From contig NZ_CP109796.1 of assembly GCF_038725785.1 (NCBI RefSeq), forward strand, positions 4,340,001-4,404,000: a stretch of DNA of 64,000 nucleotides. The letters are read 5' to 3'. Origin of the DNA: Termitidicoccus mucosus. GTDB taxonomy: Bacteria; Verrucomicrobiota; Verrucomicrobiia; Opitutales; Opitutaceae. Made by a program: the position numbers and the translations under genes. Shown here in pieces: positions 5,301-16,691 of the stretch. The notes beneath the pieces are model-generated. The model was not told the origin of the DNA and made no database searches. It was given only the letters and a program-made list of their open reading frames with translations. The stretch's first letter is position 1. Every line of letters begins with the position of its first letter.

Positions 5301-5380
5301 CAAGCAACACAACCGGAGCGGCTGCCGCCGCCCGCGTGAGCGACTGGGAGCGCCGGCATCTTGCCTGCACGCTGGGCATG

Positions 5381-5409
5381 AATAAGTCGCTAGTAATAGC
5401 GGACTTATT
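5381..5409. terminator. Stem-loop at the host/element junction
   Basis: AATAAGTC (5381-5388) pairs with GACTTATT (5402-5409) and GCTA (5389-5392) with TAGC (5397-5400), leaving one bulged G and a GTAA loop. It lies about 80 bases past the Sel1 gene and has A/T-rich flanks. It may act as a terminator. Because gene-free element-like DNA begins here, it could also be part of the left attachment region. Confidence 0.45.
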
Positions 5410-6286
5410 TGATGGTTAGTAAGTTAGAACGGGCAGAGTGTGGCAGGTTGAGGCAGGGATGGGAAGCAAAAAACAGCATTTTTGGCAACAAACTGGCAAC
5501 CCTGCGGAGGGACTTGGGCGCGGGGCGAGCCCCTTATTTGTATTCAAATTATGGATACAAATTCCCATTCGCCAATAATGCGGGAATCCGTCCGGTTGGT
5601 CGAGCCCCATTTTTGTTCCGGTATTTTTGGGGTTTCCATAAGTGTTGTTGCACGTCGAAGGCGCGGATTTTCCGGCGGTCGCCTTCCCGTCGGTCGGGGC
5701 TTCCCGGCGATGCGGAAAGGCGGATGTCGCCGTTTTGGCAGCCCGGTGCGGGTGGTTTGCGGCCTTGGTGCGCGTGCGCCGGGTGGCGGCATGATGGCGG
5801 CGACGGGTGTTTTTTCGATTCCGTCAGGCGAGTCGGTTTGCAGGGTGGCGCGGCGTCGCATCCTTTGCATGGAGCGTCCGCGCTGGTCGCGCCAGAGGTG
5901 TTTGATTCCGGGCAGGCGTGTCCGACTGTGGGTTTCATGGACGGGCGGACGGAAAAGGGCGGGAACGCTGGCTTGGAAAAAGAGGCGCGCAAGCCGGTGG
6001 GCTGGCAACGCCAGCCCTGCGCGGGTCGCGGTCACGAGGCGTCTGCTGTGTTCTCAATGTGCTGGCAGCGGCCAGCGAACCTCCGCGCCCCAATAGTTGC
6101 CAGATTGGGTGCCGCGGGCATGGTGGAGAGCGAAGCGGACCTTGCCCGCGACACTATGCTTGGCAACGGGGCGCGATGTGAGGAAATTCCCAATCCGCAA
6201 GGTCGGCCATCCCGCAAGGGAAACATCATCAAAGTGAGCCTGCGCCGGTGCCCTCTCACTCTTTTTTGGTGTCTCCCGAATCGGGC
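5410..6286. other. Gene-free left end of the mobile element, rich in palindromes
   Basis: No reading frame here has convincing protein-like composition. The stretch contains five copies of the heptamer TGGCAAC or its complement (5483, 5494, 6003, 6096 and 6161), a perfect 8-bp hairpin at 5999-6017 with loop AAC, and a nested palindrome at 6096-6167. One TGGCAAC also lies just upstream of the integrase start at the far end of the element (39994). I infer an attachment or recombinase-binding region. Confidence 0.4.
6096..6167. repeat. Nested inverted repeat in the left end
   Basis: The outer arms GTTGCCA (6096-6102) and TGGCAAC (6161-6167) enclose inner arms CGCGGGCA (6113-6120) and TGCCCGCG (6143-6150), with a further GTG/CAC pairing between them. 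The whole 72-base segment could fold as one hairpin. The function is unknown; it may be a recombination or structured site of the element. Confidence 0.5.
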
Positions 6287-7111
6287 TTATGCGAAGTCGA
6301 ACATCTGTTGTCCCAAGGCAGCCTTGATTTGCTCGGTTTTCTCCGGTGTGGGCGGTTGTCCCTGTTGTCCGGCGGCGGATGCGATGAGAGCGGTTGCAAG
6401 CGGCAGCACCGTTTCATTTCCGTTCCCGTTTTCGGTTTGCGGCGCGTCTGTCTGGTTTTGTCCGGCGGCGAGTCCGGCGAAGAGATGCAAACGTCCCCGG
6501 AAAACCCAGTGGATGTTCCGCCATGAGGCGAAGAACTTCATCGAGAGGGTGTTGCCGTGGACAACCTCCGTAGGGATGCCCCAGAGGGTGGTGTTGATGA
6601 AGCACATGTCACAGGCGGTCTTGCTGATGTCGATGGCGGTGACTCGCAAACGGCAGCGGTTCTCCGGTGAGAGCGCCTTGGCAAAGGCCAGAATCATCGC
6701 TCCCGCACCACAAGCCGGTTCGCAGAGCGTGACGGGGCCTTCTGGCGGCAGCGATGAGTCACCGGCAAGCATTTGGGCGATCATTTCGCAGATGTTCTGC
6801 GGGGTATGAAACTCTCCATTCCATTGTTGTCCCTTATGGGAGAGGGCCAAGTCCATGTAGTGGCCTCCGAGCAGGTCGGTGAAAGGTTGGGCTTCCATTT
6901 CCATGACCAGTGCGGCAAGGGCGTGGCTGAAAATTTCCAGTTCGTCCCTGTTCCAGCGTTTGACCTCTTCGAGGTATTCGGCCTCGCGGGTGCCGTGCGC
7001 GAGCGCGCAAGCGGCCAACGATGCGAATGATGTGAACACCGTGTGCGCGTCGTGGCGGCGGATGAGTTGTTCGAGCAACGGCCTGAAACAGGGGGTTTGA
7101 CTCGTTTTCAT
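6287..7111 (-). CDS. N6-adenine DNA methylase-like protein lacking the NPPY motif
   Basis: A 274-residue SAM-dependent methyltransferase-like protein related to HsdM-type adenine methylases. It shows a motif X-like GEFHTPQNICEMIAQM (residues 99-114), the SAM-binding motif I EPACGAGAMI (131-140) and an acidic motif II strand (VTAIDISKTACDM). The catalytic NPPY/F motif IV expected after HGNTLSMKFF is absent: the chain runs on into SWRNIHWVFRGR and a Gln/Pro-rich tail. Similar short forms are common on conjugative elements. It may be a catalytically dead or otherwise adapted protein that protects incoming DNA; that role is inference. Its ATG overlaps the stop codon of the upstream gene (ATGA at 7108-7111), indicating translational coupling. 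Confidence 0.75.
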   Translation of the reverse strand: MKTSQTPCFRPLLEQLIRRHDAHTVFTSFASLAACALAHGTREAEYLEEVKRWNRDELEIFSHALAALVMEMEAQPFTDLLGGHYMDLALSHKGQQWNGEFHTPQNICEMIAQMLAGDSSLPPEGPVTLCEPACGAGAMILAFAKALSPENRCRLRVTAIDISKTACDMCFINTTLWGIPTEVVHGNTLSMKFFASWRNIHWVFRGRLHLFAGLAAGQNQTDAPQTENGNGNETVLPLATALIASAAGQQGQPPTPEKTEQIKAALGQQMFDFA

Positions 7112-7596
7112 GCGACGCGGCTTTCGTTGCTAAAGTGCAGTTTGCGGTCGTCGCCGATGTAGAGATCGACTTCGCCGAAGGACTCGCTGGCGCGGGTGAG
7201 TTGCTGCATGGCGAACTCGGCAAGCTCGTCGTTCACAGACTCGTCGAAGTAGCCGCTGCCGTGACTGCAGCGCGTGAGCCAGAAATTGTGTCCGTTACGC
7301 TCGTCGTCGAGATGGCACAGGTCGGTTTTGCACTCGCGGCAGAATTGCGAGCATTCCGCCCATGCGCTCACCAGCGAGGCGGTGGCGATGTCCTCAATGG
7401 AGTGGGTGGCGTCGAAGTATTTTTCGTTGTCGTCGTGGGAGGTCCACAGCGCGGCATTTAGGTAGCCGTGCAGAAAGCGGAAGAGCATGGTTTCGCCAGC
7501 CTCGATGTGGTGGAGAAGCTCCCGGTGGACGGAAGCGCGCTTGCGGCCTTGGGGCAGGTGGAGTGTTTCCAACACGCAGGTCGTTTCGGTTGTCAT
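7108..7596 (-). CDS. Conserved mobile-element protein of unknown function
   Basis: A 162-residue soluble acidic protein. I start it at ATG 7596 (MTTETTCVLETLHLPQ), because upstream codons fall in the conserved repeat leader and their translation is only a by-product of that repeat. Visible features are CxxxCKTDLCHLDDE, a possible metal-binding Cys/His patch in the middle, then HGSGYFDESVNDELAE and LYIGDDRKLHFSNE near the C-terminus. I do not recognise a named family. Similar proteins accompany methylase-like genes on conjugative elements. It is coupled by a four-base overlap to the methylase-like gene, and its leader is copy 1 of the three-copy structured repeat. Confidence 0.7.
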   Translation of the reverse strand: MTTETTCVLETLHLPQGRKRASVHRELLHHIEAGETMLFRFLHGYLNAALWTSHDDNEKYFDATHSIEDIATASLVSAWAECSQFCRECKTDLCHLDDERNGHNFWLTRCSHGSGYFDESVNDELAEFAMQQLTRASESFGEVDLYIGDDRKLHFSNESRVA

Positions 7597-7607
7597 GTGA
7601 TTTGGCG

Positions 7608-7845
7608 CAATCAGGCGCAGTCCGCTTCCGGCGACATGCCGGGTTGTCTCGGCCTTGCCCGATTCACGTCGTTCCGAGGGCACACCCAGTCAAAGGACGC
7701 CGGAGCAGGTGCAGAGGCGTCCGGTGTGGAGCGCAGCCCGAGCTTGCGAGGGCGAGCAATACATTGACGGGTGTGACACAATTCGGAACACGCAGCAGGC
7801 AAGGGTTTTAAGCGGGGTGCCGATGGAGCGCGCGGATGCGCCGGG
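7608..7845 (-). repeat. Structured leader repeat, copy 1
   Basis: First of three related sequences of about 220-240 bases, each abutting the start codon of a minus-strand gene. The outer arms CACACCC-A-GTCAA (7681-7693) and TTGACGGGTGTG (7764-7775) enclose a 7-bp hairpin GGACGCC/GGCGTCC (7695-7701 with 7716-7722). A second inner hairpin is weaker here than in the other copies (GCCC/GGGC). Nearer the gene a CCGGC/GCCGG hairpin is shared by all copies. The core from the outer arm to the first hairpin is almost identical in all three. Confidence 0.85.
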
Positions 7846-7986
7846 GGCTGGCGGGAGTCGCATCATTGCCGCGCGGCGTTCGCCAGTGATTTCGCCATCG
7901 TGAGGTCGCAACCGCGATTGACGCCATCCCGAAGGATGAGTGCCGGGGCCGGAACGCCAGCAATGGAGGCTTCCTTGGAATGGCTT

Positions 7987-8439
7987 TTAGAGCAGTCCCT
8001 GTTGGTGGAAGGAAAAGTATCCGACCTTGAGGGGATCGGCATTGACATCACCGACGATCACGTGGTCCACGAGGTCGATATCGAGAATCCTTGCGGCTTC
8101 CTTCAGGTCAAGGGTGACGCGAATGTCCGCAGTCGAGGGGGCCGGGTCCCCGCTAGGGTGATTGTGACTGAGGCACACGCCGGTCGCCCCCGAGAGGATG
8201 GCTCCACGGAACACTTCCCGGGGCGAGGTCAGAGTGGAGGTTGCCGTTCCAAGCGAGATGAGGTGCCGTCCCAATGGATGGTTTTTTCGATCAAGATAAA
8301 CACAGTAGAACGCCTCTTGCAGCGGGCTCTGCTCAAAGGCGGAGTTGAGGTAGGCGACGACAAGTGCCGGCGTGTTGAGGGCGATTGCCTCGCCGGGGGA
8401 GACCAGCGAGTAGGTCAGTTTTGCCTCGAAGATACGCAT
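7987..8439 (-). CDS. RadC-like JAB-domain protein
   Basis: A 150-residue protein of the RadC/DUF2466 family, a JAMM-type metalloprotease or nuclease fold. Such genes are frequent on genomic islands and conjugative elements, and their real function is not settled. The metal-binding signature SHNHPSGDPAPSTADI is complete (H92, H94, S102 region and D105). It covers only the JAB domain; the N-terminal helix-hairpin-helix of full RadC is absent, as in many mobile versions. The start is ATG 8439 (MRIFEAKLTYS); longer starts would run into the repeat leader. It is preceded by copy 2 of the structured leader, so it forms its own transcription unit. Confidence 0.88.
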   Translation of the reverse strand: MRIFEAKLTYSLVSPGEAIALNTPALVVAYLNSAFEQSPLQEAFYCVYLDRKNHPLGRHLISLGTATSTLTSPREVFRGAILSGATGVCLSHNHPSGDPAPSTADIRVTLDLKEAARILDIDLVDHVIVGDVNADPLKVGYFSFHQQGLL

Positions 8440-8458
8440 GTTTTTTAGCGGAATCGCG

Positions 8459-8690
8459 CGGAAGTCCGTTCCCCGGCCTCGTGCCGGAGTTGTCTCGGCT
8501 CTGCCCGATTCACGCCGTTCCGAAGGCACACCCAGTCAAAGGACGCCGGAGCAGGTGCGCAGGCGTCCGGTGTGGAGCGCGGCGAGCCTGGTCGAGCCGC
8601 GACTACATTGATGGGTGTGGCACAATGGCGGAACACGCAGCGGCAGGCAGTTCCAGTGCGGGGTGCCGGTGGAGCGCGCGGGTGCGCGGT
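8459..8690 (-). repeat. Structured leader repeat, copy 2
   Basis: The outer arms are CACACCC-A-GTCAA (8527-8539) and TTGATGGGTGTG (8608-8619); a C-to-T change relative to the other copies keeps a G-T wobble pair. Inner hairpin one is GGACGCC/GGCGTCC (8541-8547 with 8562-8568). Inner hairpin two is CGCGGC/GCCGCG (8578-8583 with 8596-8601). The element ends about 20 bases before the RadC-like start codon. Confidence 0.85.
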
Positions 8691-8828
8691 GCGGTCTTTC
8701 GTGATTGTATTCAGATATAAAATACGGGCTCGCATCCGTCCGGCGTGATTGCCCGCGCGCGGTTGCCCGGATAAAAACGCGACGAAGGCGGACGCCGTCG
8801 CGCCGTGCGGGACACCGCCGGATGCCGG

Positions 8829-9176
8829 TCAAAGCCAGCAGTGGTCAAGGGCGTCGCTGTTGCCGAAAAGCCGCCATGCGAGGTCATGCACCAGCGAGTG
8901 GCCGCAATCGAAGCCACAACCCTCCACGCGGATGGCCTCGCGTCGCGAATCGTATCGGGTGGCCAGCGCCTTGGCCGCGCTCCAGGTGATGCGCAGCGGC
9001 TTGTTTTCGCGCACGGTGTAAAGGTCAATCCATCGGCACGTGCCGCTCCTGCTGGTGTGGCGGAGGAAGACGTAAACGGTGTCGCCAACCTTGAGGTAAC
9101 TTTTGCGGAGTCTTTCGATGGCCAGGGTGCTTTCGGTTCTGGCGAGGTCGCGTTTGATTCGAGCCTTTTGATTCAT
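8829..9176 (-). CDS. Conserved small phage/plasmid-type protein
   Basis: A 115-residue basic protein. The pattern VYVFLRHTSRSGTCRWIDLY, then an AAKAL helix, then a GCGFDCGHSLVHDLA segment matches a small protein family seen in phages and plasmids (general form: LRHVSRSG..R.IDLY ... G.GMDMG..LVY.L). I know no experimentally established function for it. The start is ATG 9176 (MNQKARIKRD). It is the first gene next to the oriT-like gap on this side and is preceded by copy 3 of the structured leader, so it would be the first of these genes to enter a recipient if transfer runs leftward. Confidence 0.72.
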   Translation of the reverse strand: MNQKARIKRDLARTESTLAIERLRKSYLKVGDTVYVFLRHTSRSGTCRWIDLYTVRENKPLRITWSAAKALATRYDSRREAIRVEGCGFDCGHSLVHDLAWRLFGNSDALDHCWL

Positions 9177-9192
9177 GTTCGGAAATGAAATC

Positions 9193-9415
9193 AGGCGCAG
9201 TCCGTTCCCGGCGTCGTTGCCGGGTCATCCCGGTCACTGCCTGATTCCGCCGCTCCCAAGGCACACCCAGTCAAAGGACGCCGGAGCAGGTGCGGAGGCG
9301 TCCGGTGTGGAGCACGGCGAGCCTGGTCGAGCCGTGACGACATTGACGGGTGTGGCACACTGAGCGGACAGCAGGCAGGGCAGATCTATTCAGTGCCCGG
9401 TGGCGTGCCGCGCGG
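9193..9415 (-). repeat. Structured leader repeat, copy 3
   Basis: The outer arms are CACACCC-A-GTCAA (9262-9274) and TTGACGGGTGTG (9343-9354). Inner hairpin one is GGACGCC/GGCGTCC (9276-9282 with 9297-9303). Inner hairpin two is CACGGC/GCCGTG (9313-9318 with 9331-9336), which differs from copy 2 by a compensatory G-C to A-T pair. A CCCGGC/GCCGGG hairpin lies between this core and the start codon at 9176. Confidence 0.85.
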
Positions 9416-9922
9416 CCATTGTCCGCATTTCCGGCGAAGCAAAATGCGGAGTGTTTTCCCGCGCCAGGGGAGCATGGACGGCGGCGGGCGGAGGCGCGCA
9501 AAAAAAGAGGGCACCGCTTCACCGGCGGCGCGCGAACACCAGCGTCCCGCCGCCGACCGCCGACGTTCTGGCTCCCCGTCCGTGCGCCGGTGCGTCCCCG
9601 CCCCTCACGAGGTCGCGCCGCGTCACAAGGCACGCAGGGGCGCGGCGCGATTTCGTGAAGGTCGGGCGGTGCGGACAGGCGTCATGCGGTCGCGCCCGTG
9701 CGCCGCGCGCACGTCGCCGAAAATCCGGGTATTTGGAATGTGGATACCGCCCCTATTTCTTTTCGTGCGCCTCCGGTAGGCTGCGGTCATGCAAGGCCCG
9801 AAAAAATCATTGCCGACTGAGGCAAGGGGAGAGGCGTGGTGCTCACAAAGAACGCAGGTGCGTTCCGGGTGGGCGCGGCCTGTCCGCATTTTTCGCGCGC
9901 GCGTCGCGAGGGAGGAGCTGCC
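9416..9922. other. Candidate origin of transfer (oriT) and relaxase-operon upstream region
   Basis: About 500 bases without a credible gene, between divergent leading-region and relaxase genes. It holds three strong hairpins. TCCGCATTT/AAATGCGGA (9422-9430 with 9442-9450) has an 11-base loop. CACGA-gg-TCGCGCCGCG (9606-9622) pairs with CGCGGCGCGA-tt-TCGTG (9641-9657). CGTGCGC/GCGCACG (9697-9703 with 9707-9713) is nearly a continuous palindrome. Position next to the relaxase and clustered hairpins are typical of oriT; the nic site itself cannot be named from sequence alone. Confidence 0.55.
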
Positions 9923-12745
9923 ATGCTGACGGCCAAGCCGCAATTAAATCTCGCCAATGTGGAGGGGTATTTTCGCGAGCACTTGGCGACGGGCGACTAC
10001 TACATGGACGGCCATGTGGTGCGCGGCGAGTGGCGCGGGGTCGCCGCGTCCATGCTCGGGCTCGACGGCATCGTGGACGAAAAAAGTTTTTTGGCGATGT
10101 GCGAGGGTCAGCATCCGGAAACCGGACAATGCCTGACCATGCGGCGCAACACGACGCGTCGGGAAGGCGAACACACGGTGTCGAACCGGCGCGTCTTTTA
10201 TGACTTCACCGTATCGCCACCGAAGTCGGTCTCGGTGGTCGCGCTCTGGCAGGATGCCCGGATTGTCGAACTGCACGACAAGGCTGTCCGTGTGATGGTC
10301 GATGAACTGGAAAAATTCGCCGAAACGCGGGTGCGCAAGGACGGCGAAAATGGCGAGCGCGTGACCGGCGGCATCGCCGCCGCGTTGTTCCGGCACGACA
10401 CCAGTCGCGAACTCGATCCGCATTTGCACACGCACTGCGTGGTGTTCAACGCGACCTACGACTGGACGGAGGAAAAGTGGAAGGCGCTGCACGCGACGGG
10501 CATGTATCGCGCCCAAAAGTTCGCCGAGAATCTTTACTACCATGAGTTGGCGAAGGGGCTCCGCAATCTTGGTTACGAGATCGTCAACACGCCGACCGGA
10601 TTTGAGATTCAGGGGGTGCCGGAGAGCGTGGTTGCCCGCTTTTCCAAACGCCATCACCAGATTGATGCGGAGACGAAAAAACGCATCGCGGAGGAGGGAT
10701 TGCTTGGCAACGAAAAGGCGCTGCGCGCGCAGGTCGCGCAGGACAAGCGGCGGCGCAAAATAAGAAGCCTGTGCGCGGAAAAACTGCATCCGCGCTGGGC
10801 CTCGGAAATGCCCGCCTCCGAACATGAGGCGCTGGCAAAACTGGAGCCGGCGCGCCTGCCGCCGCCGCCGCCGTCGGTGGTAGAAAAATGCGGGCTGCCC
10901 GGGTTTGTCGCGTGGGCGGATGCGCACCTGTTTGAGCGCCGCTCGGTGGTCGGCGACTACGAGCTGATGTCGGCGGCGCTGGCCCGCGGACGCGGCCAGA
11001 ATTTTTCCCTGGAGGACTTGGAAAACGAGATGGCGAAGCGCGATTACATCCTCGATGCGAAGTCGCGAAAATTGACCAACCGCGAGGCGCTGTCCTGCGA
11101 ACTGGCCATCGTGCTCGCCGCGCAGGACGGGGTGCGGAGTCGCGACGCGTTCAATCCGGCGCATCAACCGTCACCGTCGCTGTCGGCGGAGCAGCGCACG
11201 GCGGTGTCGCGCATTTTGCGCAGCCGCGATTTTATCACGGTGTTTCAGGGAGCGGCGGGCACGGGGAAATCTTTCGCGCTGAGGGATGTCGTGCGAGGAT
11301 TGGAAGCGGCGGGGCATCCGGTGGTCGTGCTCGCGCCGCAACACCAGCAGGCGGCGGACTTGCGTCGCGACGGCATGGCCTCGGCGGACACTTTGGCGAA
11401 GCTGCTGGCGGGAGAGGCGGGAGGGCGGCTGCCGCGAGGCGCGGTCGTGATTGTCGATGAGGCCGGGCAGATCGGCGGACGCGACATGCGCGCGCTGATC
11501 GAGCGGGTGCGGGCCTGCGGCGGGAGGCTGATCTTGTCGGGCGACACGCGGCAGCAGGGCGCGGTCGCGGCCTCGGACGCGCTGCGCTCCATCGAGGAGC
11601 ACACGCGTTTGCAGACGGTGCGTCTGGGCGCGATTCGCCGCCAAGACCCGGAGGCGGTGGCATCGCGGGAAGAAAAGGCGTTTGTGCGAAAATACCGCTC
11701 GGCGATGAAAGCGGCGGCGGAGGGCCGGCTGGCGGTTTCATTCGACAAGCTGGATGCGATGGGATGCATTCGTGAATTGGATGCCGGCGAGCGCATGACG
11801 GAACTGGCGCGCGAATATTGCGAGGCGCTGGGTCGCAAGGAAAAAGTGCTCGCCGTCGCGCAGACTTGGGACGATGTGCACGCGGCCAATGACGCCATCC
11901 GTACGCGTCTGCGCGAGACCGGCAGGCTGGACGCGGGCAGGCCGGTGGCGTCTTGGCAGGCGGCGGACTTGAGTGAGGCGCAAAAGCGTGATGCGCGCTT
12001 CTACACGCTGGATGCGGGTGTCTTCTTTGTTCGCGGCTACGGACGTTTCAAGCGGGGCGATTGGTGCGAGGTCGCCGGTGCCGGTGAGCACGGCGTGACG
12101 CTGCGCAAGGACGGGCGCGCCACGACCGTGAGCTACAAATGCGCGGACCGCTTTGTCGTCACCAGGACGAATGAATTGGAACTGGCGCGCGGCGACCGCT
12201 TGCAGATGAAGTTCAACGGAAAATCCGCCGAGGGGGCGGCGATTCGCAACGGCGAACTGGTCACGGTGCGGCGCGTGATGAAGGACGGGCGCATCCGGGT
12301 GCGTGATGATGCGGGCGTCACCAAAACGCTCGCTGCGTCGCAGCGGATGCTTGTGCGCGGCTACGCGGTCACCTCTTACGCCTCGCAAGGCAAGACGGTT
12401 GACACCGTGCTCGTCGCCCATGACGGCGAACAAGCGCCGATGAACCGCAACCAGTGGTATGTGGGCATCTCGCGGGCGCGGCAAAAGGTCGTCGTGTTCA
12501 CCAGCGACAAGGAAGCGCTGAAGCTGAACGTCGAGCGCGAGTCCGACCGCGAACTGGCGCTGTCCGTCAAACCCGACGAAGCGACGGTCGAGGCCGTCCG
12601 CGAAGAGTTGCTTTTGGAGGCGTTTCAGCACCAGTTGTCGTTGCAAGCGCATGAACGCCTGCGCGAGTCCGTCCGCCAGTGGGTGCCGCCTCCGCAACAA
12701 CAACCGCAACAGGACCAATCCATAAATAGAGGCATACGACTATGA
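9923..12745 (+). CDS. TrwC/TraI-type conjugative relaxase with RecD-like helicase
   Basis: Nicks oriT, stays covalently bound to the 5' end and unwinds the strand for transfer. The start is ATG 9923 (MLTAKPQLNL), because GGAGGAG sits six bases upstream; a start at 9836 is unsupported. N-terminal relaxase domain: tyrosines Y16 and Y26/Y27 (ATGDYYMDG) match the paired catalytic tyrosines of TrwC, and the HUH metal site is HLHTH at 167-171. The C-terminal half is a superfamily 1 helicase: Walker A GAAGTGKS (443-450), Walker B VIVDEAGQI, motif III LSGDTRQQGAV, motif V YASQGKTVDTVLV and motif VI YVGISRARQKVVV. The length of 940 residues is normal. The stop overlaps the next start (ATGA), so the two genes form an operon. 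It appears intact. Confidence 0.95.
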   Translation: MLTAKPQLNLANVEGYFREHLATGDYYMDGHVVRGEWRGVAASMLGLDGIVDEKSFLAMCEGQHPETGQCLTMRRNTTRREGEHTVSNRRVFYDFTVSPPKSVSVVALWQDARIVELHDKAVRVMVDELEKFAETRVRKDGENGERVTGGIAAALFRHDTSRELDPHLHTHCVVFNATYDWTEEKWKALHATGMYRAQKFAENLYYHELAKGLRNLGYEIVNTPTGFEIQGVPESVVARFSKRHHQIDAETKKRIAEEGLLGNEKALRAQVAQDKRRRKIRSLCAEKLHPRWASEMPASEHEALAKLEPARLPPPPPSVVEKCGLPGFVAWADAHLFERRSVVGDYELMSAALARGRGQNFSLEDLENEMAKRDYILDAKSRKLTNREALSCELAIVLAAQDGVRSRDAFNPAHQPSPSLSAEQRTAVSRILRSRDFITVFQGAAGTGKSFALRDVVRGLEAAGHPVVVLAPQHQQAADLRRDGMASADTLAKLLAGEAGGRLPRGAVVIVDEAGQIGGRDMRALIERVRACGGRLILSGDTRQQGAVAASDALRSIEEHTRLQTVRLGAIRRQDPEAVASREEKAFVRKYRSAMKAAAEGRLAVSFDKLDAMGCIRELDAGERMTELAREYCEALGRKEKVLAVAQTWDDVHAANDAIRTRLRETGRLDAGRPVASWQAADLSEAQKRDARFYTLDAGVFFVRGYGRFKRGDWCEVAGAGEHGVTLRKDGRATTVSYKCADRFVVTRTNELELARGDRLQMKFNGKSAEGAAIRNGELVTVRRVMKDGRIRVRDDAGVTKTLAASQRMLVRGYAVTSYASQGKTVDTVLVAHDGEQAPMNRNQWYVGISRARQKVVVFTSDKEALKLNVERESDRELALSVKPDEATVEAVREELLLEAFQHQLSLQAHERLRESVRQWVPPPQQQPQQDQSINRGIRL

Positions 12746-13176
12746 GCAGACTCCGGGAAGAAATCGAACGCCGCCGCGCGGCGAGAAACGCACAAGCCGA
12801 TGGCGGCGGCATCGCGGATGCCACCGCCCCGGCGCGGGCCGGTGAAACCGGCGCGGTCGCTGCGCCGTCCAACGCGCCCTCGTGCCTGCGAATCACCAAA
12901 ACGAACGGGCAATGCTGGCTGCTGCCATGGGCTTGTTTCCACGGCGCAAGCCATGACCCGGATGTCTCTTCCGCCGATGGCAACGCCGGGCGGTGCGAAC
13001 GCCTGCGTTTGGTTTTTTTGCGCCATGAAGTCATCCTGCACGGGCGCGGACTTGCCGGCCTTGTCGATGCCATCGAGGCGGCGCGGTTGCGCAAACTCGA
13101 TGAGGTCGCGGAAAAGTTCCGCGCCGCCACCGGGGACGGCCCTGTGATTGTGAAGATTGAAGTAAAGGTGGGGTGA
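12742..13176 (+). CDS. Small protein of the mobilisation operon, unknown function
   Basis: A 144-residue protein whose ATG overlaps the relaxase stop codon. A charged N-terminal helix (MSRLREEIERRRAARNAQ) precedes a low-complexity Ala/Pro linker. A compact C-terminal domain then shows WLLPWACFHGASH, LRLVFLRHEVILHGRGLAGLVDAIEAARL, a pattern suggesting beta strands then an amphipathic helix. I recognise no named family. Position between relaxase and coupling protein suggests an accessory role in DNA processing, but nothing in the sequence proves it. Confidence 0.68.
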   Translation: MSRLREEIERRRAARNAQADGGGIADATAPARAGETGAVAAPSNAPSCLRITKTNGQCWLLPWACFHGASHDPDVSSADGNAGRCERLRLVFLRHEVILHGRGLAGLVDAIEAARLRKLDEVAEKFRAATGDGPVIVKIEVKVG

Positions 13177-13239
13177 TTTTGGTCTTTTTGTCCTCAAAAA
13201 TGGTCGGAATGTCCAAGACAAGCGGAGGCGTTTTCAGGC

Positions 13240-14775
13240 ATGGTGGCGGGGCTGCGCGCAATGAATGCGCGCGGCGGTGTATTGATGACCATGTTGTTTC
13301 ATCTCTTTCTTGCCATCGTGAGTCTCGGTTGCGCGTTTTTCGCACGTCGGGTCGGCATGTCGCCGGGTGCGGTGCTGGCGATGTCGGCGGTGTTCGGCGT
13401 GTTTGCCGTCTGGCAGGTGGCGTGCGGCGTGATGGCGGCGCGTGGGCATTCGCGCGCGAAGCCGGTTCTGACACTGGGCGGGTTTTCGTGGTCGTTGAAT
13501 GACTTTTGCCGGGGCTGGCTGGTGACAGGCGAAACGGGTTCGGGAAAAACGCTCTCGGCCATCAATGCCATGCTCTGGCAGGTCTCGAAAAATTGCCCGC
13601 GCTGGGGCGGCATCTGCATCGACGACAAGGGGCTTTATTGGGAGACGCTTTCAGAGATGTTCAGGCACCTCGGGCGCGAACAGGATTTGATTTTGCTGCA
13701 AGTGCGCCCGGACGGCGCGCCTGCGGATTGGGAACCGCCGCACACGTTTAATTACCTTGAGGACCCGCGCCTGCCTTTTTCAGCGAAGGCGAAGGATGTC
13801 TGCGATGTCGCCGCCTCGCTCGGGCAGGACAGCGACCAGGCGTTTTTCAAGACGCAGGCGGAGATTCAGATGGACTTTGCGTTTCAGGCGCTGGCCTGCG
13901 CCGGGTTGCCCGTCACGCTCAACGACGCCTATGAAATGCTCTCATCGGACGCATGGACGAAGGAAGTCATCGGGATGCTGGATGAAAAAAACACGACGGA
14001 ATCGCGCGAATTGATGGAGCATTACGAGACGCAGATCGCCAGTCAGCCAAAGGAGCAACTGGGCGGCGTGCGCGGCACGCTCGCCAATCGGTTGAAGCAT
14101 TTTACGCATCCCGACATCGCGAAGGTGTTTTGTCCCGAGAAATCGTCGCTTTCGTTTGCGGAGATCGACCGGGGCAAGGTGATTTGCGTTTCCATCCCGC
14201 AACGCTTCAAGACGGAGCGGCGATATATTCACACGCTGCTCAAGCTCGTGTTCTATTCGCATGTGCTGCTGCGCTTCGACCGGACCTCGAAGGAGTGGGC
14301 GAATGACAATTTGCTGATATTGTGGGCCGACGAGGCGCAAAAGATCGTGACGGCGAACCATGACGGCACGAGTGATTACAACGTCGTGGACGTGATGCGC
14401 GAGGCCAGGGCGACGGTCGTCGCGGCGACGCAAAGTTACACGTCGCTCATCCCGCCGATTGGCGACGAGCAAAAGGCGAAGGTTTTTATCGCGAACATGG
14501 CGAACCGCATCATGTTCAAGGCCGCCGACGAGGAATCCGCGAAAATCGCGGCGGATACGCTGGGGAAGAAAAAGTATAGGAAACGCACCCATGGGTATTC
14601 CGCCGGCAAGCGGACGATGTCGTATTCCGAGGAGGAAAAGTATTATATAGAGCCGCATGAGTTCCGGCGGCTGCGGAAGTTTCAGGCGGTCGTGCAGCAT
14701 TGCGAGGCCGGGTTCAGGCGCATGGTGCTGCCGCCGCGCGACGCGGATGGGCGCGTGTGCGGGTGGTTCCGTTAA
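13240..14775 (+). CDS. Type IV coupling protein (VirD4/TraD family)
   Basis: Inner-membrane ATPase that links the relaxosome to the secretion channel. The start is ATG 13240 with AGCGGAGG about ten bases upstream. Two transmembrane segments occupy roughly residues 13-33 (LFHLFLAIVSLGCAFF) and 43-68 (AVLAMSAVFGVFAVWQV). Walker A is GETGSGKT (97-104), and Walker B is LLILWADEAQ with D364/E365. A later DVMREARATVVAATQSYTSL matches the conserved helicase-like motif of these ATPases. At 511 residues it is somewhat short, with a short C-terminal tail. It lies between relaxase and Clp-like genes on the same strand. It appears intact. Confidence 0.9.
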   Translation: MVAGLRAMNARGGVLMTMLFHLFLAIVSLGCAFFARRVGMSPGAVLAMSAVFGVFAVWQVACGVMAARGHSRAKPVLTLGGFSWSLNDFCRGWLVTGETGSGKTLSAINAMLWQVSKNCPRWGGICIDDKGLYWETLSEMFRHLGREQDLILLQVRPDGAPADWEPPHTFNYLEDPRLPFSAKAKDVCDVAASLGQDSDQAFFKTQAEIQMDFAFQALACAGLPVTLNDAYEMLSSDAWTKEVIGMLDEKNTTESRELMEHYETQIASQPKEQLGGVRGTLANRLKHFTHPDIAKVFCPEKSSLSFAEIDRGKVICVSIPQRFKTERRYIHTLLKLVFYSHVLLRFDRTSKEWANDNLLILWADEAQKIVTANHDGTSDYNVVDVMREARATVVAATQSYTSLIPPIGDEQKAKVFIANMANRIMFKAADEESAKIAADTLGKKKYRKRTHGYSAGKRTMSYSEEEKYYIEPHEFRRLRKFQAVVQHCEAGFRRMVLPPRDADGRVCGWFR

Positions 14776-14787
14776 TCTCATTTTTTC

Positions 14788-15687
14788 ATGACGGAATTTC
14801 GACCCAGTAAAAACATTGGCGACGACTCGTTTCGCCAGCGTCGCGAACAACTTCGCGACCTCGGCGCGCATCTGCGCGGGTACATCAAGGGGCAGGCGCA
14901 TGTCATCGGGTGCGTGGAATCGGTGCTGCGGCGCGGCGAACTCGGCCTCTCCCATCCGGGACGGCCAAAAGGCTCGTTTCTTTTTGTCGGCCCGACTGGG
15001 ACGGGCAAGACGGAGCTAACGAATGCGTTCACGGGGTATTTGTTCGGCGGTGCGAAGCCGTTGCGCTTTGACATGTCGGAATACCAAACCCAATCTTCGA
15101 TTGAAAAACTAATTGGCGAGAAGGTCGGCGATATTGGCTTGCTCGGGCGCGCGCTGGCAAAGGCGGATGCCGCGCAGGGCGGCGGTGGCGGGACGCTTTT
15201 GTTTGATGAAATCGAAAAGGCGCATCCGCTGGTATTGGATTTGTTTTTGCAGATATTGGATGACGCGAGCATCACGCTGGCGAGTGGCGAGCGGAAGAAC
15301 CTTTCCGGTTTTTATATCGTGTGCACGTCGAACATCGGCGCGGCGGAGGCCATGCGGATGCAGTCCGCGCCATTCGCGAGCATCGAGCGCACGGTATTGG
15401 CGCGGGTGAATCAAACACTGCGTCCCGAACTGGTGGGGCGCATGACGGAAAAGGTGGTGTTTGCACGGTTGCCTTATGCGGTGCAGCGGGAGATTTGCGA
15501 AGCCATGATCGCGGGCGAATTGGCGCGGCTGCAAAAGCTGTGGCATGAGATCACGGTTACTCCCGATGACGTGGAGACGATTTTGCGGGCTGGTTTTCAC
15601 AGGACGCTCGGCGCGCGCCCCATGCGCGGGGCCGTCGAGCGGTTCTTGCAGGACAAAATCACAGCGAAGCTGCTTGATGCCGGATAG
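14788..15687 (+). CDS. Single-domain Clp-type AAA+ ATPase
   Basis: A 299-residue AAA+ protein resembling the second ATPase domain (D2) plus C-terminal subdomain of ClpA/ClpB. Walker A is GPTGTGKT (68-75), Walker B LLFDEIEKAHP (D140/E141), sensor 1 YIVCTSNIG, and sensor 2 GARPMRGAVERFLQDKI, the hallmark of Clp D2. It has no N-domain and no first ATPase domain. The substrate-gripping pore loop of ClpA (GAPPGYVG) is replaced by GEKVGDIG, so the aromatic residue is missing. It follows the coupling protein by 12 bases and is probably in the same operon, suggesting a remodelling job in conjugation; this is inference. Intact. Confidence 0.85.
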   Translation: MTEFRPSKNIGDDSFRQRREQLRDLGAHLRGYIKGQAHVIGCVESVLRRGELGLSHPGRPKGSFLFVGPTGTGKTELTNAFTGYLFGGAKPLRFDMSEYQTQSSIEKLIGEKVGDIGLLGRALAKADAAQGGGGGTLLFDEIEKAHPLVLDLFLQILDDASITLASGERKNLSGFYIVCTSNIGAAEAMRMQSAPFASIERTVLARVNQTLRPELVGRMTEKVVFARLPYAVQREICEAMIAGELARLQKLWHEITVTPDDVETILRAGFHRTLGARPMRGAVERFLQDKITAKLLDAG

Positions 15688-15707: not shown

Positions 15708-16691
15708 TCACGGGCCAAAGGCTTGTTTGCGCAGGCCGCGCAGGGCGGTCAGTTCACCGCCCCAGTCGGTGAGCGCGGGCAGCGGGCGCGGCGCGCTGTG
15801 CGCGCGGCGGTGGAGTTTGCAGCGGTAGTGCGCGAGGTGTTGCGCGACGAAGGCTTTGCCGCCAAGCACCGCCCCGTCGGTGAAATAGCGTATCCGGCAT
15901 CTCAATACGGTTGCCAGCGACAGGCGGGTTTTGCTCTTGAGGGCCTGCTCGAATTGCTCCGGAGGGAATGGCGGCGGCGTGCTCATTGGGTGCGGAGCCT
16001 TTGCCAAAAAGCGACTCGCGATAGGCGGCTTGGACGGCGGGCCAGTGTTTGCCCTCGCCGATGATGTGCGTGAGTCCGGCGCGGGCGGGCTTGTTGTCGG
16101 CGACCGCCTCGGCGTAGCCGCAGAAACGGTAGTCTTTCGGGTCGGCGGCGAGGCCGGTGCGCACGCAATTCAGGTCGATGTAGGCGGCCATCGTTTCGAG
16201 CACGCGGCCTTTGGGTTCGAGCAGGACGGACTTGAAGCGTTCCGACCAGAGCGTGCCATAACGGCGGTGAACCAGACGGAGAAACGTTGTTTTACCAGCT
16301 TCATGAACTGCGAGATGTCGCCCATGAGCGCGTGCTGGCGTTTGCGCCACGTATCGGCCTCGGGGCCTCCGGTTTTGAGTTGGGCCTCGATCACGTCAAA
16401 CCTAGCCGCTTGATAGAGGATGGGTTTCGGATACATCACGCGATAGCGGCGGAGCAATTCGGCGTCGGAGATTTGCGAGTCGGGCGGTACGCGGACAAGC
16501 ACGTGGAAGTGGTTGGAGAGGATGGCGTAGGTGAGGATTTGCAGGCCGCAGTAGTCAGCGGCCTGCCAGAGTTGACGGCGGAGGATTTCCTGCACGGGGT
16601 CGTCCAGCAACCGCTCGCCGTTCACCGTCCGGGCCAAGCAATGGTAAACAGCCTCGCCTTCGACGGGTGAGACCTTTCCGCTTCCCGGCAC
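15708..16691 (-). pseudogene. REP-associated tyrosine transposase (Y1_Tnp), frameshifted
   Basis: HUH-type single-strand transposase of the TnpA-REP group. The N-terminal frame starts at GTG 16691 (VPGSGKVSPVEG, then YHCLARTVNGERLLDD) and holds the HUH site NHFHVLVRVP. Near 16270 the frame is lost after QRFSVWF and resumes one frame over as RRYGTLWSERFKSVLLEPKGR, consistent with one missing base. Near 15985 the frame changes again and returns to the original frame as PPEQFEQALKSKTRL ... LRCRIRYFTDGAVLGGKAFV ... LRGLRKQAFG, the usual C-terminus of this family. With two breaks it is probably inactive unless the breaks are sequencing errors. It separates the mobilisation operon from the cargo genes. 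Confidence 0.85.

Follow-up and report, generated by a model that had tools for sequence, protein, structure and literature searches.

A covarying 5' leader precedes accessory genes of a repeated mobile element in Termitidicoccus mucosus

Accessory genes of a repeated mobile element in Termitidicoccus mucosus (Opitutaceae) are preceded by copies of one leader of about 210 nt (191-231 nt, measured from 45 nt before helix P2 to the ATG). Comparison of these copies showed that the leader folds as a nested rod, P1 and P2, that bears the hairpins P3 and P4, with a second domain containing P5 and P6. Judged from its sequence, this single structured 5' leader probably, if by a small measure, acts in cis on translation as an RNA, and it would most likely be a switch that times the expression of the accessory genes.

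Leader copies and their host element

The window, meaning the whole stretch of DNA that was analysed, covers 64,000 nt of contig NZ_CP109796.1 (positions 4,340,001-4,404,000). The structured repeat reported there in the original prediction is real: it spans 115 nt and has three copies, two of which are 93% and 70% identical to the middle one. The outer arms, the GGACGCC/GGCGTCC and CCGGC/GCCGG hairpins and the swap from CGCGGC/GCCGCG to CACGGC/GCCGTG were all found as described. Three points needed correction. Because the genes are encoded on the minus strand, the leader's sense strand is obtained by reverse-complementing the sequence first read; a shift of the bulge makes the outer arm of copy 2 fully Watson-Crick, which removes the need for a wobble at its C-to-T change; and the helix inventory had overlooked P1 (GTTCCG/CGGAAC, or CCGCTC/GAGCGG in copy 3), P6 (AATCAGGC/GCCTGATT and equivalents, adjoining the ATG) and a possible outermost helix, P0 (CTGCCTG/CRGGCAG). 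The arm TTGAYNGGGTGTG is mismatch-free in the window solely at the three copies, on the minus strand; the other three of its six matches carry two mismatches, a stringency at which about ten chance matches are expected, so only the exact ones are informative. The features are as follows, where bit scores from the narrow model R1 are self-referential because all three copies are in its own alignment.

approx. 5352-15654, no strand: repeated mobile element, about 10.3 kb (blastn against paralogous stretches)
6089-6180, minus: trailer hairpin with the leader core (CAAGGT-P3-CTCCACC), downstream of the methylase (profile matches and covariation)
6287-7111, minus: N6-DNA methylase, 274 aa, overlapping the end of orfA (PF02384, E 2.9e-10)
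7108-7596, minus: orfA, 162 aa, PHROG 1915, function not assigned (ATG 7594-7596)
7597-7804, minus: leader copy 1, from the P0 5' arm to the base before the orfA ATG
7609-7616, minus: copy 1 P6 3' arm GCCTGATT, 12 nt before the ATG (5' arm AATCGGGC, 7657-7664)
7628-7642, minus: copy 1 P5 hairpin CCGGC-ATGTC-GCCGG (from the sequence)
7681-7775, minus: copy 1 domain 1 core, P2 enclosing P3 and P4 (P4 7695-7722; R1 97.1 bits, self-referential)
7784-7789, minus: copy 1 P1 5' arm GTTCCG, pairing with the 3' arm CGGAAC (7671-7676)
7796-7804, minus: copy 1 P0 5' arm CCTTGCCTG, partner CGGGCAAGG (7653-7661); tentative helix
7987-8439, minus: RadC-like JAB domain protein, 150 aa (PF04002, E 5.1e-36)
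8440-8650, minus: leader copy 2, upstream of the RadC-JAB gene
8451-8456, minus: copy 2 P6 3' arm CGATTC, 11 nt before the ATG (5' arm GAATCG, 8506-8511)
8527-8619, minus: copy 2 domain 1 core, with P2, P3 (8578-8601) and P4 (8541-8568; R1 108.9 bits, self-referential)
8829-9176, minus: orfC, 115 aa, PHROG 12365, function not assigned
9177-9378, minus: leader copy 3, upstream of orfC
9189-9196, minus: copy 3 P6 3' arm GCCTGATT, 12 nt before the ATG (5' arm AATCAGGC, 9239-9246, fully Watson-Crick)
9262-9354, minus: copy 3 domain 1 core, with P2, P3 (9313-9336) and P4 (9276-9303; R1 111.9 bits, self-referential)
9926-12745, plus: MobF/TrwC-type relaxase-helicase, divergent from the cassette (PF08751, E 1.6e-78; NF041492 above cut-off)
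13240-14775, plus: TraD/TrwB-type coupling protein

At least 27 leader copies are present in the 7.9-Mb genome, mostly within 11 such elements, a lower bound given that 150 of 12,818 candidates were scored. The claim that the copies each adjoin the start of a different gene holds more widely: 25 of the genome's 26 uninterrupted copies lie in front of orfC (11), radC (5) or orfA (9), two of the five radC genes being interrupted further on, and every leader assignable to a gene is oriented into it on the gene's own strand. At locus L045 (genome G004) the methylase is also preceded by its own leader. From their kind and place we infer that orfC, radC and orfA are establishment genes, and orfA and orfC, accessory genes without an assigned function, probably belong to one regulon. 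A search bearing on nic and the direction of transfer gave candidate hairpins.

A model search of the phylum, of the kind that the original prediction had proposed, found relatives in Opitutaceae only (Ereboglobus and, weakly, one further genus) among the 11 candidates scored per genome, a depth at which absence is weak evidence. One match in genome G225 (E 0.006, model positions 19-79) was regarded as chance. Distant relatives of orfA occur on nine plasmid records, including Paraburkholderia and Methylobacterium, and orfC had no plasmid match at E 0.001. Four of these nine records (Paraburkholderia, Methylobacterium, Caballeronia and Mesorhizobium) contained no Rfam match, and their sole match to R1 was in L098 (E 0.35). 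Positions 7600-9420 of the window gave two weak matches to plasmids, one in a radC gene and one in an unannotated record, and an exact pattern had no match in viral contigs. The trailer stretch itself (6076-6192) folds with a z-score of -6.09.

The original prediction had allowed that the copies might be remnants of a transposable element with no link to start codons. A dispersed repeat such as REP/RAYT would fit the GTAG or GTCG that stands before the P3 hairpin in many copies, and the ORFs at about 15754-16691 resemble a REP-type transposase. However, the one P3 type searched occurs twice in the 7.9-Mb genome, both times in leaders, and the trailer core pattern occurs four times, twice inside cassettes, so this explanation is largely refuted and we give it almost no weight.

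The repeats could also be sites of cassette exchange, of an integron or recombination type, with their position before genes a by-product. In three elements (L035, L036 and L041) radC is missing and the junction falls inside a leader, and the genes in L045 are arranged differently from those in the window. Homologous recombination between near-identical leaders accounts for both observations, however, and no integrase was found among the eight element genes searched. Leader types mostly track their gene, the exception being a radC leader with an orfA-type core (L039:10683), and exchange would leave the fixed distance to the ATG unexplained. We therefore consider exchange sites very improbable.

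Covariation of the leader fold

The case for the fold is carried by covariation, fold stability being weak evidence alone (z-scores of -3.92, -0.85 and -1.05 for copies 1, 2 and 3). In the proposed covariation test, on 16 distinct cores, 12 of the 25 core pairs were altered on both sides, a count reached by none of 500 shuffles, and 90.9% of cells were paired, versus 80.2% in shuffles and 30-43% in controls that had been slid. For the count of further pair types, 53 of the 500 shuffles did as well. The structure under test was drawn from these same copies. Permutation of the arms across 31 copies never matched the native pairing of P1, P2, P3 or P4 (0/5000 each) and rarely that of P6 (6/5000) or P0 (91/5000). 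P5 is conserved and has no permutation support for covarying (1753/5000); by this measure P0 is weakly supported and P5 unsupported. These tests left out a copy cut by the locus edge (L038:56) and one that lacks both the second domain and a gene (L079:17505), and at no stage did they include an interrupted remnant (L038:12428) or a weak copy in genome G304 (L081:12170). RNAalifold, given a plain alignment of 18 copies, recovered P2, P4 and P5 but missed P1, P3, P0 and P6; both sides were altered in 8 of its 27 pairs. Most copies are closely related, which leaves few independent events and means that shared descent may account for part of the constancy of the distance to the ATG.

A coding explanation was rejected as unlikely, since a stop codon interrupts the frame of the gene in 28 of the 31 leaders (in 10 of the 31 between P2 and the start codon) and the spacing from P2 to the ATG falls into all three classes modulo 3 (22, 6 and 3 copies). 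The covariation in the 16 cores and the permutation tests support the earlier suggestion of selection on folding rather than coding. The leader combines what is generally expected of a cis-regulatory element: a conserved structure with compensatory changes, upstream of genes and in one orientation.

The arms might instead serve as operators in double-stranded DNA, where one shared regulator would bind the inverted repeats and the fold itself would have no function. The outer arms do amount to an extended inverted repeat, a palindromic protein site would be expected to retain pairing that is mostly Watson-Crick, and in clade II plasmids of the pLS20 family a repressor acts on repeated upstream sequences, according to parts of one report (PMC8708921). 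However, the arms of P1, P3 and P4 change and yet stay complementary, which a sequence-specific operator would forbid, and the P2 arms lie about 70 nt apart. An operator is accordingly improbable in our judgement.

Predicted alternation of P0 and P6 and the strand that folds

In 27 of the 29 copies measured, the 3' arm of P6 ends 8-12 nt before the ATG, and P2 lies 81-91 nt from it in all 31 copies, whether before orfC, radC, orfA or the methylase, where the ATG was defined as the first to occur 76 nt or more beyond P2. P0 and P6 overlap in bases in 30 of 31 copies, and the minimum-energy folds of the 31 contain P0 in 14, P6 in 14 and both in none, two of the 14 P0 folds (L082 and L083) being a 4-bp helix in another register. 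With the rival helix blocked, P0 still fails in five copies and P6 in five, including copy 1, where P6 is absent from both predicted states. Predictions also shift with the end points chosen: copy 3 folds with P6 in the 31-copy run, and all three window copies fold with P0 under other end points. No Shine-Dalgarno match, even one of 3 nt, precedes any of the 31 leader genes; among other ATG-start ORFs in the window, only 3 of 19 have one of at least 4 nt. Mean AT content in 21 representative copies is high just 5' of P0, with equally high peaks elsewhere, also within the leader.

From this arrangement, a mechanism can be proposed in which the leader is transcribed as part of the mRNA and controls its translation. 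P6, when formed, would occlude the start region; P0 would withdraw the 5' arm of P6 and leave the start region open. The AT-rich stretch 5' of P0 could be the -10 region of a promoter, in which case P0 would form first on the nascent RNA. An RNA-binding protein of the element or host, or a state peculiar to a new recipient, are candidates for what might move the balance, and since the genes share the leader, one signal could set them all.

Folding energy and the counts of G.U and A.C pairs leave the strand undistinguished, so a function in single-stranded DNA during conjugation is possible. In 17 copies tested from the 31-copy set, the two strands fold to a similar degree relative to their respective shuffles. 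The antisense strand is more stable by a mean of 7.7 kcal/mol, with the sense strand lower in 1 of 31 copies, and because shuffled sequences of the 17 copies show a like difference (7.9 versus 7.2), this excess is an effect of composition. G.U pairs fill only 10 of 397 core cells in the 16 distinct cores, which is unusually few for RNA, and none was found in P1-P4 in a 31-row helix search, which favours Watson-Crick pairing. In those rows, which include two copies later dropped and many cells related by descent, G.U and A.C cells numbered 3 and 2 in P0, 0 and 1 in P1, 0 and 0 in both P2 and P3, 0 and 6 in P4, and 23 and 15 in P6. These counts are not decisive for the strand.

The fold could work in conjugative single-stranded DNA, as a Frpo-like promoter or as a single-strand initiation site from which the complementary strand is synthesised, and so allow early expression in the recipient. 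In the sections of the two reports that bear on this, Frpo and ssi are repeated hairpin-forming sequences before early establishment genes (PMC9849209, PMC11541004), Frpo1 and Frpo2 are likewise near-identical repeats before several genes (PMC9849209), and leading regions resemble the gene set seen here beside the relaxase, with RadC-JAB, a methylase and small unknowns (PMC11541004). The 3' arm of P2 also carries an invariant TTGAC (31/31 copies). Whereas Frpo and ssi, in those sections, rebuild -35 and -10 boxes in their stem (PMC9849209, PMC11541004), no -10 element lies 15-19 nt from TTGAC in the leader: identity of at least 4/6 occurs in 1 of 31 copies, and the mean best identity is 2.3 of 6 versus 2.0 in shuffled sequences. 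The genes, moreover, are directed away from the relaxase; should oriT lie between the two and the cassette enter first, the transferred strand would be the coding strand and could not be a template. We regard a single-stranded DNA function as unlikely, if less so than the operator reading, and favour a leader that acts as RNA.

Known systems and significance

The expectation that no described family has this core holds for Rfam 15, which gave no match. The whole window returned nothing relevant at the gathering threshold, and positions 7500-9500 at a permissive threshold returned only SNORD126 (E 6.8). The radC RNA motif is a putative cis-regulatory structure that stands before radC-type genes and other mobile-element genes whose products act on DNA, and the leader likewise precedes a PF04002 gene and an N6 methylase. 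This motif (RF01754) is listed for Proteobacteria in the relevant part of PMC2864571. A genome search with RF01754 gave five matches, the best scoring 17.8 bits versus a gathering score of 40 and none at a leader, and positions 7500-9500 contained no match up to E 10. STAXI, as described in part of PMC2864571, similarly lies near genes for ssDNA binding, integrase and antirestriction, and its authors weigh ssDNA and RNA; unlike the leader, which has no Rfam match, it consists chiefly of a pseudoknot that recurs two or three times. Among the titles and abstracts searched, none described the leader, which could nevertheless be among the 224 candidate RNAs of a 2017 survey.

A very similar arrangement has been published as EGeRS1 of the pLS20 family of Bacillus conjugative plasmids (PMC8708921), which is the nearest analogue of the leader. 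The portions of that report concerned with EGeRS1 describe a highly structured sequence present in several copies, each of which immediately precedes an establishment gene or operon, with mosaic gene content behind a similar leader and no promoter found within it. EGeRS1 has no constitutive promoter and, in its native orientation, blocks expression from an upstream promoter; its consensus structure comes from RNAalifold, and these portions contain no covariation test (PMC8708921). By the same account it differs in its length of 400-750 bp (420-750 on pLS20), two to three times that of the leader, in lying upstream of a likely RBS, whereas the leader has no Shine-Dalgarno match, and in occurring in Bacillota (PMC8708921). 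R1 found no match in bases 1-50000 of the 65774 of pLS20.

A fuller reading, which we put forward tentatively and consider possible rather than probable, is that the leaders form a new class of bistable RNA governing an establishment regulon in Verrucomicrobiota, in which mutually exclusive P0 and P6 would gate starts that lack a Shine-Dalgarno sequence, the trailer would share the core, and one trans signal linked to arrival would act on all. If true, this would make the bistable leader a Gram-negative counterpart of EGeRS1 with a defined structure. The switching of establishment genes only on arrival has been explained for a few plasmids, by ssDNA promoters or a repressor absent in the recipient. 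The leader adds a structured family absent from Rfam 15 and, as a short structure that covaries and has natural compensatory variants in front of four different genes, makes EGeRS1-type switching testable: P6, P0 and P4 can each be separately broken and mended with changes that evolution has already made.

Structure and covariation of the leaders

The original prediction that three segments of the window form one repeat, each adjoining the start of a different gene, was borne out: the repeat has three copies on the minus strand, preceding orfC, a RadC-JAB gene and orfA (orfA and orfC have no assigned function). These belong to an element that extends over approximately 5352-15654, as determined by comparison with paralogous stretches.

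Features of the element in the window
6089-6180, hairpin ("trailer") downstream of the methylase gene; z -6.09 for 6076-6192
6287-7111, minus, N6-methylase gene, overlapping the orfA end
7108-7596, minus, orfA, copy 1 directly upstream
7987-8439, minus, RadC-JAB gene, copy 2 directly upstream
8829-9176, minus, orfC, copy 3 directly upstream
9926-12745, divergent from the leader-bearing genes, MobF relaxase
13240-14775, divergent from the leader-bearing genes, coupling protein
14788-15687, divergent, ClpB-like AAA ATPase, last gene of the element

The proposed fold comprises a nested rod (P1, P2), two inner hairpins (P3, P4), a second domain (P5, P6) and a tentative outermost helix (P0). When 16 distinct cores were aligned by sequence only, 90.9% of the 397 cells of a structure that we drew ourselves were paired, compared with 30-43% in slid controls. 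Both sides had changed in 12 of 25 pairs (shuffle mean 7.4, 0/500 as high), while the 21 further pair types were reached by 53/500 shuffles. Examples include ACACCC/GGGTGT to ACATCG/CGATGT in P2, GGACGCC/GGCGTCC to GCCTGCC/GGCAGGC, GCCCG/CGGGC and GGCGCGC/GCGCGCC in P4, and GTTCCG/CGGAAC to CCGCTC/GAGCGG, CCGCCC/GGGCGG and GGTTCCC/GGGAACC in P1, and P6 occurs as AATCAGGC/GCCTGATT, CGGAATCG/CGATTCCG, GAAATCG/CGATTTC and CGAGATCGGGC/GCTCGACCTCG. Given 18 longer copies in a plain alignment, RNAalifold recovered P2, P4 and P5, and both partners had changed in 8 of its 27 pairs; P1, P3, P0 and P6 were not recovered from this alignment, in which P1 and P6 are misaligned. When arms were re-paired between copies and subjected to the same best-helix search (5000 permutations), the native arms of P1, P2, P3 and P4 were better than every permutation, and the native values of P6, P0 and P5 were reached by 6, 91 and 1753 permutations, respectively.

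The trailer core, CAAGGT-hairpin-CTCCACC, is that of the leaders, and a trailer profile also matches leaders (L082:10655, E 3.9e-9). Among 11 trailers, both partners vary in 8 of 15 pairs, and three of the outer pairs cannot form in three or four of the trailers. Among the copies listed, five (L040, L042, L082, L107, L111) have a terminator-like T run 3' of the hairpin, which is missing after the window-type trailer hairpin. Trailer-type hairpins were also found without the cassette alongside, in L105, L106 and L108 (904-934); the last, from another genus (G018), follows a radC-type gene.

Distribution of the leaders and their element

A covariance model built from the leaders gave 26 matches at E <= 1 in the 7.92-Mb host genome (150 of 12818 candidates scored), and cmsearch on the fetched stretches added a copy without P4 (L040:9130, E 0.035), for a total of at least 27. 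One is an interrupted remnant (C1:2148427, the same copy as L038:12428, E 0.22); the interruption lies at L038 ~12440-12490, and the adjoining sequence looks like an IS66-type transposase end. By tblastn, 25 of the other 26 precede orfC (11), radC (5) or orfA (9), L079:17505 being the only one without an assignable gene. TraI homologues are present in 11 host stretches fetched around leaders, including the window, and in L045 the methylase gene is preceded by its own leader.

The phylum-wide search with this model that had been proposed was performed with 11 candidates scored per genome, and gave a match at E <= 0.01 in 4 of 387 sampled genomes, including the host; one of these (G225) is doubtful. 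G004, assigned to the same family as the host, has 5 copies, and G304, also of this family, has one weaker copy (E 1.3e-7). orfA was found in 2 of the 387 genomes, including the host. An exact-pattern scan of an 84,980-genome collection matched four contigs, three from Ereboglobus sp. PH5-10 (equal in length to G004 contigs C13, C25 and C26) and one from an Ereboglobus MAG with 2 copies (L099); Ereboglobus belongs to the Opitutaceae.

The element looks mobilizable rather than self-transmissible, because no mating-pair-formation gene was found among the eight element genes searched; an integrase was likewise not found among them. The ClpB-like ATPase (14788-15687) is an odd companion for a relaxase and a coupling protein. 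The left end (5352-5420) carries a palindrome, AAGTCGCTAGTAATAGCGGACTT, which is identical in 6 of 8 aligned rows, has one change in L035 and was not seen in the L044 row; we take it to resemble a conserved 16S rRNA stretch. ORFs just beyond the right end (15754-16691) look as if they encode a REP-associated (Y1) transposase. In L037, two element copies lie tail to tail with 183 nt between them (17545 and 17728), which suggests a preferred target.

Start codons and a possible switch

Taking the first ATG at least 76 nt past P2 as the start, the distance from the P2 end is 81-91 nt in 31/31 copies, and P6 ends 8-12 nt upstream of the ATG in 27 of the 29 copies with a second domain. In L040:10167 and L040:10907 the helix search took another helix, 15 and 17 nt from the ATG, and a second search gives GAATCG/CGATTC. 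At the usual distance from the start codon, none of the 31 leader genes matches even three bases of AAGGAGGT, compared with a match of at least four bases in 3 of 19 other ATG-start ORFs (>= 250 aa) of the window; that leader genes are poorer in such matches is only suggestive. Across 21 representative copies, mean AT content peaks approximately 40 to 30 nt ahead of P2, just 5' of P0, where a -10 region is possible, and peaks elsewhere too, including within the leader.

The P0 3' arm overlaps the P6 5' arm in 30/31 copies. Minimum-energy folds of the 31 copies contained P0 (>= 4 pairs) in 14, P6 (>= 5 pairs) in 14 and both in none; two of the P0 folds (L082, L083) are a 4-bp helix in another register. 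When the end points are shifted slightly, P0 is present in the folds of all three window copies. The energies of the two constrained states differ by no more than 7 kcal/mol in 27/31 copies (largest gap 13.7), and each helix fails to form in 5 copies even when the other is blocked, window copy 1 being among those failing to form P6. With reserve, we read these predicted folds as a bistable leader, P0 versus P6, of which P0 is the weakest helix proposed.

Mode of action and relation to known systems

Neither folding energy, once composition was controlled, nor wobble counts told the strands apart. Few core pairs are G.U (10/397 cells), which speaks against reading the fold simply as RNA. Frpo, a sigma70-like ssDNA promoter, has a -10 box, whereas a box of this kind is missing in the leader.

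Between the cassette and the relaxase gene, a large inverted repeat (9597-9666; loop CAAGGCACGCAGGGGCGCGG or close) is alike in 12 of 13 aligned stretches, with L079 deviating, and is a candidate oriT or regulatory hairpin. A second conserved hairpin (~9800-9860), which precedes the relaxase start by approximately 100 nt, covaries between stretches (TTGCC..GGCAA, TTGCGC..GCGCAA, TTCGC..GCGAA) and is followed by GGGGAGANGCGT and ACGCAGGTGCGTT; this region may hold nic. Both hairpins could be part of oriT.

In L035, L036 and L041 radC is missing, and the leader that contains the junction has bases to which either window leader can be aligned. This points to loss of radC by leader-leader recombination. 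Since these junctions lie inside leaders, the leaders also function, actively or passively, as recombination points, a role likewise raised as a possibility for Frpo1 and Frpo2 (PMC9849209). In L037 and L038, approximately 3.4 kb interrupts radC.

The radC RNA motif has a gene context like that of the leaders; unlike this context, its model does not match them. The closest known system is EGeRS1 of pLS20 plasmids. On pLS20, five structured copies, 420-750 bp long, precede establishment operons; a constitutive promoter was not detected in them, they block expression from an upstream promoter in their native orientation, the transferred strand is not the template and the mechanism is unknown (PMC8708921). 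We therefore regard the leaders as a new structured family whose mode of use has one clear precedent.
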